Both the position numbers and the translations under genes were made by a program. From the NCBI GenBank assembly GCA_009841055.1, contig VXMN01000223.1, positions 1 to 42,899 on the forward strand: a DNA stretch of 42,899 nt, given 5' to 3'. Under the pieces are notes generated by a model that searched no databases, was not told the origin of the DNA, and was given only the letters and a program-made list of their open reading frames with translations. Origin of the DNA: Acidobacteriota bacterium. Lineage in GTDB: Bacteria; Acidobacteriota; Terriglobia; Versatilivoradales; Versatilivoraceae. Shown one piece after another: positions 5,301 to 28,988 of this stretch (the stretch's first letter is position 1; every line of letters starts with the position of its first letter).

Positions 5301-5392
5301 GAATGATGAATGATGAATGATGAATGATGAATGATGAATGATGAATGATGAATGGGGAGTGAGGAGTGAGGAGCAGGAGTGATGGGAGGAGG
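5301..5392 (+). repeat. Heptamer array, GAATGAT x7 plus degenerate GAGTGAG units
   Basis: Seven perfect tandem GAATGAT units (5301-5349) follow the ATPase stop codon directly, then degenerate seven-base units such as GGAGTGA and GGAGCAG. On this strand every frame meets TGA within 21 nt, and ATGA occurs twice per unit. This is the left bracket of intergenic element 1; the right bracket at 5811 is inverted. Confidence 0.95.
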
Positions 5393-5393
5393 C

Positions 5394-5611
5394 AGCCCAC
5401 CCGGGAGCGCGGGCGTCCCGCCCGCATGCACTCCCGTTGCGTGCCGCTCGGTTTTCTGCGATGCGGCAGCCGGCCACCCGGGCGGCGGGAACGGCATAGG
5501 CCCGGCCGAAGCAGAGTCCTGGCGCCGTTGCCGGTCGAGCCAGGTCGAGGAGTTGGCCAAAGGGTGTGCCACGACCTGTGCGGGAGGGACGCCCGCGCTC
5601 CCGGGTGGGCT
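5394..5611. repeat. 33-bp inverted repeat pair inside intergenic element 1
   Basis: Arms at 5394-5426 and 5579-5611 are reverse complements with a single mismatch, around cores GCGGGCGTCCCGCC and GGACGCCCGCGC, separated by 152 bp. They are much more GC-rich than the flanking heptamer arrays. The 152-bp loop holds no convincing gene. The stretch after the second arm (about 5650-5705) resembles, at diverged level, the reverse complement of about 26840-26900 inside element 3. Confidence 0.9.
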
Positions 5612-5810
5612 TCATCCCGTGACGTCGTCGCAACAGGGGGGGGCATGGGTCTTTGTGTCTATTCGCGGTTCGTCTTCAACAACCATCGGCAGTTTCTTCC
5701 TCGAGTGATCCGCCCGGCAGGGCGGCGGCTGAACTCATTCGAAGGACTACGCCGAAACCGACAAGATACCTTGCGTGTCGATCAAATAACTTTTCACGCA
5801 CCACTCTCCG

Positions 5811-5856
5811 TTCATCATTCATCATTCATCATTCATCATTCATCACTCTTCACTTA
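5811..5856 (+). repeat. Heptamer array, TTCATCA x5 plus one degenerate unit
   Basis: Five perfect TTCATCA units (5811-5845), then CTCTTCA. This is the inverted counterpart of the 5301 array and closes element 1. It ends about 30 bp before the permease start codon. In this direction no frame contains a stop codon. Confidence 0.95.
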
Positions 5857-5885
5857 GCCGTGCCGCCCGCGTCCCAGTAACGCCA

Positions 5886-26697: not shown

Positions 26698-26791
26698 GGG
26701 GAATGATGAGTGGGGAATGATGAATGATGAATTGGGAAATGATGAATGATGAATGATGAATGATGAATGAAAAATGGAGAGTGGAGAGTTG
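26698..26791 (+). repeat. Heptamer array (GATGAAT family), left bracket of element 3
   Basis: GAATGAT/GATGAAT units with small gaps (26698-26770), trailing into purine-rich GGAGAGTGGAGAG. It abuts the thrB start codon. Inverted relative to the array at 27042-27118. Confidence 0.92.
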
Positions 26792-27041
26792 ATGGTGATT
26801 GGTGGTCCGTGAAGTCCCGCCCCGCTGAGTGCATCGTTCGAGGGGAAGAGGCCGATTGTTCATGAAGGCGAACCACCAATGGACACGAATCAACACGAAA
26901 AAGCCAAGGCACCGATAGACCTGCTTCATCACCACGCGGCACCCAAGTGCATTTTCAGCCCCTTCGTGCGCCTTCGCATTCCCTCGTGTCCCTTCGTGTA
27001 GTTTTCTTTTCCCCATGCATGACCCATCAACCAAACAACTC
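26792..27041 (-). repeat. Interior of intergenic element 3: dispersed repeat modules, reversed
   Basis: Carries on the minus strand the same modules as element 2: CATGGGGAAAAG (about 27007-27018), ACGAAGGGACACGAGGGAAT and GGGTGCCGC..AAGCAGGTCTATC (about 26918-26950). A GTCCATTGGTGGTTCG piece (about 26868-26885) also occurs near 36747 and, diverged, near 5660. Open frames here are repeat by-products. I see no gene. Confidence 0.8.
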
Positions 27042-27118
27042 CTCATTCATCATTCATCACTCATCATTCCTCATTCATCATTCATCATTCATCATTCATC
27101 ATTCATCATTCATCATTC
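27042..27118 (-). repeat. Heptamer array (ATTCATC on plus), right bracket of element 3
   Basis: About ten ATTCATC units, the last seven nearly perfect. It holds the aroDE stop codon (27099-27101) and its last codons. Confidence 0.95.
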
Positions 27119-28601
27119 GTTTCAGCACGACCTCCCGCATTCCCTGCAGGGGGGCTTCGCGTCCGGTCCACAGAAAGCACTGCCGGGCCGCTTGTCCGAC
27201 AAACATCTCCAGGCCGCTCACCACCCTGGCCCGTTTTCCGGCTTCCCGAAGGAGTCGGGTTTCCAGGGGATTGTAGACCATATCGAACACCGTGCCGTAC
27301 CTTGTTTCCTCTCCGGCCACAGGACTGTCATGGATGGCGGGGGACATGCCCACCGGGGTGGCGTTGATCAGAAGATCGCCGCTGTAACGGCCGGAACGAT
27401 CCAGGGAGTCGGCCTCGAACCCAAAGTCCCCGGCCAGCGCCTCGGCCCTGGACCGGTTCCGGGCCAGGACGGTGACCCGCCAGCCGGCGCCCCTCAACAC
27501 GGCGGCGGCGGAGCGGGCGGCGCCGCCGGCTCCCAGCAACACGGCCCGAGCAGGCGAGCCATCCAGGCATCCGCGCAAGGCATGGCGAACGCCGTCCAGG
27601 TCGGTATTGTAAGCCCACAGGCCATCTTCGCGCCGGACCAGGGTGTTGGCGGCCCCGCATGCAGCCACGCTCGGATGCCGCTCGTCCACGTATCGCAACA
27701 CCGGGACCTTGTGCGGAAGGGTGACGCTGAGCCCGCCGAAGCGTTGCAGATGGGGCGCGAACGCTTCCAGGTCGGGCGTGGGCAGGGGCAGGTAACGGCA
27801 ATTCAGGCCGAGCTGCCGGAAGGCGTGATTGTGCACCTGCGGAGACAGGGAATGGCCGATGGGGTGGCCGATCACGCCATAAAAAAGAGTGCGGGAATCG
27901 ATCGAATTCAAGCGGTAGACGCATTTCAGATCCCGGGAGGTGAATTGCCCGGGGGCCGTCTCCCGGCCCGCGCGCGTGGTTGCGTAGGTGAGTAGGGCCC
28001 CGCGGCTGGGAGCCACCAGGCGGGAATAAACGCCCAACTCCCCCATGGCCACCGCAATGACGGGGAGGCCCTGCCGCCGACCCTGTGACACCAGCTCCAG
28101 GAGGCGAAAATTGTCGGCGAAATCGGCCGCAAGGGTGGCGACCTTCACGACGTCGGCATTGACCGCCAGAATCCGCCGGAAAACGGCCTGGAGATCGGAG
28201 GGAGTATCGCGGAAGTTGTGGTAGGACCCGATCAACCTCCAGGATCCGTCCCTGATCTCCTCCAATCGAGTGGGGCCCACTGCCTCCAGCGTTTCCACCT
28301 CGATATCCAGAAAGGAAAAACCGGCTCCCCTGATCCTTCCCAGCATCTCCAACTGTTGGATCGCTCCCCCCTCGAACCGTCCTCCAAACGGTTTTCTGCG
28401 AAGCGTCCCGATGACCGGCACACCCGCCAGGGCCACCCAGCGCTGCATCCGCTGCGGGGTCAGTTGAGAGGGATCCAGGTAGTCGAGTCGAAATTCCAGC
28501 AGGTCGGAATCCCGGCGGCTCTCCAGAACGGCCCTTTCAAAGTCGCCCGGGGCGCACTCCCGGATGACGGTGCATATTTTTCCGTTGGGCGATGGGGACA
28601 T
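27099..28601 (-). CDS. aroDE: Bifunctional 3-dehydroquinate dehydratase / shikimate dehydrogenase
   Basis: A 500-residue fusion for two consecutive shikimate-pathway steps. The N-terminal type I dehydratase (about 8-222) has the DLLEFRLDYLD strand, catalytic His128 (GSYHNF) and Schiff-base Lys153 (VVKVATLA). The C-terminal shikimate dehydrogenase (about 238-493) has SLSP (251-254), catalytic Lys298 (LPHK), Asp334 (YNTDLDG) and the NADP motif GAGGAA (357-362), then INATPVGM. The order matches the fused plant enzymes and some bacteria. The last residues KR-MMNDE and the stop are encoded by a heptamer array, in the same phase as in hisD. A possible promoter lies at 28693-28722. Confidence 0.95.
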   Translation of the reverse strand: MSPSPNGKICTVIRECAPGDFERAVLESRRDSDLLEFRLDYLDPSQLTPQRMQRWVALAGVPVIGTLRRKPFGGRFEGGAIQQLEMLGRIRGAGFSFLDIEVETLEAVGPTRLEEIRDGSWRLIGSYHNFRDTPSDLQAVFRRILAVNADVVKVATLAADFADNFRLLELVSQGRRQGLPVIAVAMGELGVYSRLVAPSRGALLTYATTRAGRETAPGQFTSRDLKCVYRLNSIDSRTLFYGVIGHPIGHSLSPQVHNHAFRQLGLNCRYLPLPTPDLEAFAPHLQRFGGLSVTLPHKVPVLRYVDERHPSVAACGAANTLVRREDGLWAYNTDLDGVRHALRGCLDGSPARAVLLGAGGAARSAAAVLRGAGWRVTVLARNRSRAEALAGDFGFEADSLDRSGRYSGDLLINATPVGMSPAIHDSPVAGEETRYGTVFDMVYNPLETRLLREAGKRARVVSGLEMFVGQAARQCFLWTGREAPLQGMREVVLKRMMNDE

Positions 28602-28956
28602 GAGGGGTGGCGAGGGGCCGGCAGCGGTTGTCGGGAGTGAACGGGCAGCGGCCTTCAGTGTGCTCCGGTACGGGAACGGCAGTTGACGTTCGAGTTTAGC
28701 ATAAGCCTTTTCCCTACGCCAAGTTGACCGTCTTCCCGCGACGCACGATTAAAGTCACCACTTGTGTTCTTGTGCCCTTTGTGGCCATTCCCGGCAAACG
28801 TCCGGCTGCCGAATTTTGTAAAAGGCTCAACAGAAAATAGAGTTACCCACGAAGGGCTACGAAGGAATAAGAACGGGCACGATAGGGATGCAAGAGCGTC
28901 TGGGTGCCGCTTGCTGATAAAGCAGGTCTATCCGTGCCTTGGCCTCTCCGTTTTTC
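28602..28956. other. Intergenic region upstream of aroDE with a dispersed repeat copy
   Basis: Together with the adjacent array this fills the 382 bp between aroDE and amrA. The first about 130 bp should hold the aroDE leader and promoter. From about 28746 it carries repeat modules A and B in plus orientation (CTGCCGAATTTTGTAAAAGG; ACCCACGAAGGGCTACGAAG; GGGTGCCGCTTGCTGATAAA), diverged from the copy in element 2. There is no left heptamer bracket here. I see no gene. Confidence 0.7.
28693..28722 (-). promoter_or_regulatory. Possible promoter for aroDE
   Basis: On the minus strand TTGGCG (28722-28717), an 18-nt spacer and TAAACT (28698-28693), about 90 nt before the aroDE start. The match to consensus is moderate. 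Confidence 0.35.
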
Positions 28957-28988
28957 CATTCATCATTCATCATTCATCATTCATCACT
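28957..28988 (-). repeat. Heptamer array (ATTCATC on plus) at the amrA 3' end
   Basis: Four ATTCATC units, then ACTCCCCC. The stop of amrA (28984-28986) is its first TGA on the minus strand. It is a single array without an inverted partner. Confidence 0.93.

Follow-up and report, generated by a model that had tools for sequence, protein, structure and literature searches.

Tandem heptamer arrays recur in a 42,899-nucleotide stretch of DNA of an Acidobacteriota bacterium (GenBank assembly GCA_009841055.1, contig VXMN01000223.1; the whole stretch is called the window below), and we consider it likely that they are pairs of arms, both pointing inward, of small mobile elements that lie between genes. 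In coding copies, the element has a gene for a four-helix-bundle (4HB) protein. The 4HB gene lies beside or between arrays of 7- or 8-base units, and the arms tend to be inverted complements of each other with the G-rich strand reading inward. A gap that holds an element in one species can lack it in a sister species, in two cases within tight operons and with the element close to a stop codon or directly behind it.

The window is contig 362 of a 4.32-Mb genome in 374 contigs, in which a pattern of three GATGAAT units with up to two mismatches occurred 62 times forward and 27 times in reverse (0 and 0 for the reversed-pattern control). Arrays of a second family, TGAAGNN, likewise occur widely in this genome; because the control count for its degenerate pattern was high (96 and 89, versus 107 and 114 for the pattern itself), its numbers were taken from exact matches and the array finder. 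The AGTGGTTAGTGGTC array at positions 4373-4468 of locus L037 in the same genome, the stop of which is TAG and not TGA, represents a third unit family. In three places of the window (5294/5811, 22318/22736, and 26695/27043), a plus-strand array is succeeded by one on the minus strand. Convergent genes do not explain these pairs, since all three lie between genes of the same direction. The window and the stretches L031 to L070, picked mostly for holding arrays and referred to below as the sampled stretches, contained 53 orientable arrays, and neighbors less than 600 bp apart were convergent in 11 cases, on the same strand in 4, and divergent in none. Among 13 intervals between paired arrays, a comparison in which five-copy-poor arrays of unsure orientation were allowed, 11 matched at least one other at an E value of 1e-3 or better, and those of L054 and L056 were without a match. 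The arrays are the borders of a dispersed repeat.

A 4HB protein is encoded in the interior of L056. Searching the genome with PF05635 (23S_rRNA_IVP, '23S rRNA intervening sequence protein') revealed two genes, both above the curated cut-off and both adjoining arrays; of the one on contig C367, only the left arm is visible, and the contig stops shortly past the gene. The cut-off of TIGR02436 was exceeded by L237 and L072, and the protein has relatives of known structure in PDB entries 2GSC and 2RLD. In the window's genus, 12 PF05635 matches were obtained in five of seven genomes, 11 of them over the Pfam cut-off. A period-7 array was located within 350 bp of 11 matches; the remaining one, a fragment that did not reach the cut-off, was overlapped by such an array. 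None of the copies in the window contains an intact 4HB gene. Compared with the 3' end of the L237 gene, however, four of five tested non-coding cores scored above all 500 shuffles. These include the core of the first window element, element A, where the match covers positions 5741-5791 on the plus strand (score 19; 0/500 shuffles as high), and element A is thus a decayed 4HB element. Convergent arms and cores that match the 3' end of a coding parent in four of the five cases are traits shared with miniature inverted-repeat transposable elements (MITEs). Elements B and C have other interiors that could not be traced to the 4HB gene.

In the window's phylum, 147 of 297 sampled genomes have a match to PF05635, as do all 21 genomes reached through named loci, but none of 14 well-known control genomes has one; some genomes harbor many copies. 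Two matches in genome G363 fall within very long reading frames of 2014 and 1182 codons (G363:C40:12611-12901 and G363:C131:3804-4100), which are either fusions or matches in the frame of a host gene.

The association of the 4HB gene with arrays extends far beyond this phylum. From the genomes of 84,980 species, we inspected 80 4HB loci, a non-random set representing the best 80 of at least 588, which by record titles belong to Bacteroidota, Clostridia, Proteobacteria, Acidobacteria, Planctomycetes, Chloroflexi-type bacteria, Gemmatimonadetes, Omnitrophica, others, and two Methanophagales archaea. When at least 20 lag matches out of 28, no farther than 350 bp from the gene in either direction, were counted as an array, 60 of these loci carried an array of period 7 (43 loci) or period 8 (17 loci). 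Periods 5, 6, 11, and 13 were not detected at any of them, period 9 was detected at two, and periods 10 and 12 at one each; periods 14 and 15 echoed 7 and 8. In the window's phylum, period 7 or 8 was present in 24 of 30 genomes, each represented by its best locus, while 30 loci of ParE in the same phylum gave period 7 in none and period 8 in two. ParE genes usually stand beside an antitoxin gene, and the period and distance controls thus outweigh this comparison, since one ParE flank is often coding. At 1150-1500 bp from the 4HB gene, period 7 persisted in 6/70 and 7/73 cases, implying that these genomes also have a general background of heptamer arrays. Plasmids are included in the distribution: 26 plasmid records, 24 of them cyanobacterial by name, contain a 4HB gene, and period-7 arrays were found at 9 of 10 plasmid loci examined. 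On a Nostoc edaphicum plasmid, gene and period-7 arrays lie between nrdB-type and nrdA-type genes, and on plasmids of Pseudanabaena galeata and Anabaena sp. 90 (L279 and L280) between cas6 and cas4. The unit sequence varies by element and includes GGGATCA, AGTGGTC, AGTAGGC, AGCTATC, and CATAACAA, among others. In the two Methanophagales archaea (L109 and L125), the 4HB gene is situated beside a period-8 and a period-7 array. The 80 loci as inserts in rRNA were rejected, as the scan of these loci, which did not extend to the 30 phylum loci, returned no rRNA family match at gathering score and they are therefore not inside a 23S rRNA gene.

The arms tend toward a common geometry. In 134 arrays at 84 loci, G exceeded C on the inward strand in 112, C exceeded G in 17, and both were equal in 5. 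When each left flank was compared with its own right flank at the 106 loci with sufficient flank (4 of 110 were dropped), the reverse complement was the better match in 88 and a direct copy in 17; none of 198 shifted controls rose above the inverted 99% level. Array pairs enclose the 4HB gene on both sides at L124 and L164, and direct arms were seen at L106, L134, L136, and L140.

Comparison of relatives provides filled and empty versions of the same sites. Locus L094 in genome G149 holds an element between two genes read by eye as pdhA and pdhB, with the array beginning directly past the stop codon of the upstream gene. Both flanks are present in many of 41 genomes searched in this genus. In genome G319, where the match ran through without a break, the same gap contains AGTGGTC arrays with a related 4HB gene between them, and 16 congeners, picked because the element was apparently missing, proved to be without it. 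Their flanks are spaced 0, 2, 5, 9, 10, 13, 20, 28, 42, 58, 62, 70, 84, 135, 152, and 552 bp apart, the last case being G173 (L206, G173:C12), with other reading frames that by eye resemble a toxin-antitoxin pair, and G181 has a lone heptamer array at this site. Insertions of different kinds thus concentrate in the gap between the pdhA- and pdhB-like genes, which is a hot spot for them. Genome G173 has a second element (L075) between genes identified by eye as rpsG and fusA. Among 13 congeners compared at this gap, G316 is filled likewise, and G298 is empty, with only TAG-TTAA-ATG between the genes. In G181, G321, G300, G308, and G324, the gap is occupied by small inverted hairpins of heptamers, each genome having its own unit, and the remaining congeners show other short insertions or palindromes (both by eye). 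In the window's own genus, the unit type at sites B and C differs between species, and G327 has a related element at site C that is turned round. Genomes G326 and G330 lack an array at site D.

Several observations weigh against mobile elements built around a 4HB gene. At the stricter threshold of 23 of 28, period 7 was retained at only 23 and period 8 at 8 of the 80 loci, and even at 20 of 28, no array was detected at 20 of the 80 loci and 6 of the 30 phylum loci. The cross-locus 99% level was passed by 33 of 106 flank pairs in inverted and by 15 in direct comparison, and by neither in 62. The 53 oriented arrays of the sampled stretches are matched by just two 4HB genes in the genome, G326 and G331 have arrays yet are without a PF05635 match, and the core of L070, one of the five tested, did not match the 4HB gene. 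Neither a recombinase nor a target duplication was found, with the junctions in G149 and G173 judged by eye and no transposase search made.

An alternative is that heptamer hairpins arose on their own in intergenic gaps through slippage and hairpin copying, and that the 4HB gene inserted later, the arrays being landing sites and not parts of the element. Array-only hairpins with differing units in the rpsG-fusA gap of several G173 congeners, the lone array at the pdh gap of G181, and arrays in genomes devoid of PF05635 matches are all consistent with this order of events. However, some sites that are free of arrays hold arms and gene together in a relative, the non-coding cores are relics of the gene, so that many array pairs formerly enclosed one, and the interiors are related across the genome. 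We therefore regard landing on preexisting hairpins as rather unlikely. A further alternative, that the arrays act as transcription terminators or are bound by a global regulator and only by chance consist of tandem 7- or 8-mers, would be in line with their intergenic location and their potential to form hairpins, as nine rpsG-fusA spacers fold better than shuffles (z of -2.6 to -7.7). Regulator sites were proposed for the tandem 7-/8-mers of Geobacter (PMC2700814) and post-transcriptional roles for the TAACTGA repeats of Beggiatoaceae (PMC4679880). Yet presence, unit, and length vary between sister species at one site, some arrays are situated within operons such as rpsG-fusA, and the tie to a single gene family is left unexplained, which makes such a function very unlikely.

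The initial annotation, made from the window alone, had offered another explanation, namely that the arrays serve as frame-independent stops at the 3' ends of genes and owe their placement to selection or targeting. Its descriptive basis is sound. All eight arrays that it listed, seven of the GATGAAT family and an NTGAAGN array at 18003, were recovered where it had placed them. As can be read directly off the sequence, GATGAAT provides TGA in every frame and ATTCATC no stop, and the TGA face is indeed met by all five genes that it had named (ABC ATPase, hisD, aroDE, amrA, and HupE-like), its 'amrA' being the AMMECR1/AmmeMemoSam-A gene at 28984-29538. Its placement of the arrays at gene ends is correct for these five 3' ends but not for 5811, 22318, and 26698, which are on the 5' side of a gene; these three of the eight window arrays are partner arms of arrays at gene 3' ends. 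Beyond the window, the orientation is likewise far from even, with the TGA face at 32 of 34 gene 3' ends in the sampled stretches. The two exceptions are the convergent gene 17162-17992, to which the array at 18003 also turns its stop-free face, and L037, where a TAG-type array was probably misread by TGA/TCA scoring. The arrays also furnish host stops: the stop codon lies in or at the edge of an array in six of seven hisD and all seven aroDE sequences, and in or at an array in five of seven AMMECR1 genes. In this way, host proteins such as HisD receive a C-terminus rewritten by an array.

Nonetheless, a role as a frame-independent stop fails as a general feature of the arrays. Over the 134 arrays from many phyla, all-frame stops occurred on the inward strand in 59, on the outward strand in 46, and on neither strand in 50, so that this property is not conserved, even though a slight excess of inward stop faces exists (inward-only in 38 versus outward-only in 25). 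The two remaining AMMECR1 genes, from array-free relatives, end in an ordinary TGA, and in L222 the hisD frame stays open across its array. Inward arrays are also found at 8 of 10 gene 5' ends in the sampled stretches, where a stop is needless. The orientation rule thus follows from both arms of an element pointing inward: any gene ending at an element reads the same face, and in this lineage that face holds TGA. What stands of the earlier proposal is that the regularity is real and does not reflect random microsatellite growth; its attribution to selection or targeting is weakened, since orientation follows element geometry. Because units differ by element and fewer than half of the inward faces carry all-frame stops, we interpret the stop face as a by-product, specific to this lineage, of arms that point inward. 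This leaves room for, at most, a weak landing advantage from the stop face, and we hold selection for stops to be very unlikely.

If the arrays are arms of mobile 4HB elements, a hairpin formed by the two arms may be the form that is moved or kept. Slippage in 7- or 8-base steps could lengthen the arms, copying across the hairpin might keep them alike, and the 4HB protein would bind the arms or their RNA and aid movement. Two further candidates were set aside. A reverse transcriptase acting in trans was considered, as RVT_1 was found in six of the seven genomes of the genus, but none was found in G328, which has two 4HB genes. A unit composed of core plus spacer, serving as a protein-binding motif, was not favored, because the mismatches showed only slight clustering by phase (in 77 arrays, the observed value was reached by 29 of 2000 simulations). 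The TGAAG-NN arrays of the window's genome do look like core plus spacer, which is a weak lead.

In the window, gene calls were made with a codon model, and neighboring genes were named from family scans. The left arm of element A (5294-5372, plus strand), of the GATGAAT type with its TGA face inward, contains the end of an ABC ATPase gene (4214-5299). It is followed by a non-coding interior (5376-5798), sequence of which is common to the interiors of other elements in the genome, and by the right arm, an inverted GATGAAT-type array (5811-5852, minus strand) located 5' of an ABC permease gene (5886-7565). A lone TGAAGNN-type arm (18003-18052, minus strand) marks the end of a HupE/UreJ-like gene (18047-19240). 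Element B has its left arm (22318-22387, plus strand) just 5' of a GFO/IDH/MocA oxidoreductase gene (21306-22313, minus strand), and its right arm (22736-22808, minus strand) is the source of the last codons and the stop of hisD (22789-24081, minus strand). Part of its interior (22397-22594) is a dispersed repeat of about 200 bp present in this genome and genus. This repeat, nested in element B, has many copies in the genome and congeners, most matches being 83-90% alike. The left arm of element C (26695-26770, plus strand) is positioned just 5' of thrB (25765-26685, minus strand), and the right arm (27043-27118, minus strand) supplies the last codons and the stop of aroDE (27099-28601, minus strand). 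The interior of element C (26793-27036) has 122 bp (81%) in common with that of element B, in opposite orientation. Element D consists of a right arm only (28957-28986, minus strand), where the AMMECR1 gene ends. In or near elements there are also tandem 10-mers (CACGAATGAA) and long CACGAA...TTCGTG palindromes, located at 26793-27036 and 36749-36783 in the window, 6439-6628 in L035, and 7110-7409 in L049, which probably constitute another repeat family. Scanning the window for RNA families, rRNA included, gave no match at Rfam gathering scores.

MITEs and the repetitive extragenic palindromic (REP) sequences with their hairpin-forming doublets (REPINs) are short intergenic inverted-repeat elements and gene-free derivatives of a coding parent. 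The elements described here resemble them in being short and intergenic, in their inverted ends, and in having gene-free derivatives of a coding parent, but differ in that the arms are tandem arrays with a unit that is not conserved between elements. We know of no transposase for such array-armed elements. For years, heptamer arrays as such have figured in the literature as repeats without an explanation or as sites for regulators. The short tandemly repeated repetitive (STRR) sequences of cyanobacteria are intergenic heptamer arrays. The TAACTGA repeats of Beggiatoaceae, Cyanobacteria, and Bacteroidetes show strain-specific presence and 7-nucleotide indels (PMC4679880). Both are similar to the arrays studied here in location, presence by strain, and 7-nucleotide indels, whereas we saw no link made there to a 4HB gene or to inverted arms. 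In two Xanthomonas genomes, GGGAATC heptamers form 70 and 75 convergent array pairs near a neighboring open reading frame (ORF) (PMC4692102), an arrangement similar to that in the window. Unlike here, they were interpreted as G-quadruplex repeats, and the words 'four helix' are absent from the text of that report; X. campestris possesses a PF05635-type protein, XCC0516, the structure of which is PDB 2GSC. Paired 7- and 8-mer sites of Geobacter metallireducens correspond to the elements in both periods, in lying on opposite strands, and in their variable distance, and depart from them in their interpretation as binding sites of a regulator (PMC2700814). In Flavobacterium columnare, a four-helix-bundle gene was located between the guanylate kinase gene and nadD (PMC5524665). 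Avd of diversity-generating retroelements (PMC10053308) is a distant relative of the 4HB protein, given the match of L237 to NF033474 at an E value of 8.3e-7. L237 remained far under the Avd cut-offs (29.3 of 80 bits for NF033474 and 29.2 of 40 bits for PF22296), and the Avd family scan of L072 listed no match.

The closest known system is the intervening sequence (IVS) of 23S rRNA with its S23/IVP gene. In Coxiella burnetii, this IVS of about 430 nucleotides has complementary ends, encodes a PF05635 protein, and contains tandem GACAGAT heptamers just upstream of the S23 ORF; it was termed a selfish element, and its origin and function were called unclear (PMC4990558). The elements described here differ from it in lying between protein genes, in arms that are longer tandem arrays of free sequence, and in their many copies per genome in some genomes. 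We rate them as IVS-type elements outside rRNA. In the open-access literature, the scope of our survey, into which subscription papers and preprints mostly do not fall, we recognized no statement that joins the 4HB gene to heptamer arrays, and the link may have been overlooked because PF05635 is missing from the well-known control genomes. A broader proposal, to which we would give somewhat less than an even chance, is that a class of elements without known recombinase extends over bacteria and archaea, with inverted 7-/8-base tandem arms of free sequence around a 4HB gene. Such a class would be the common source of the cyanobacterial, Xanthomonas, Geobacter, and Beggiatoaceae heptamers and kin of the 23S rRNA IVS, its units possibly being written in 7- or 8-base steps by the protein, or by the hairpin and a partner in trans. 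The elements illustrate how an insertion can come to lie within a tight operon, as at rpsG-fusA, with no gene being broken, and how C-termini such as that of HisD are rewritten by it. Tying the arrays and the 23S rRNA IVS to one element family renders each of them testable.

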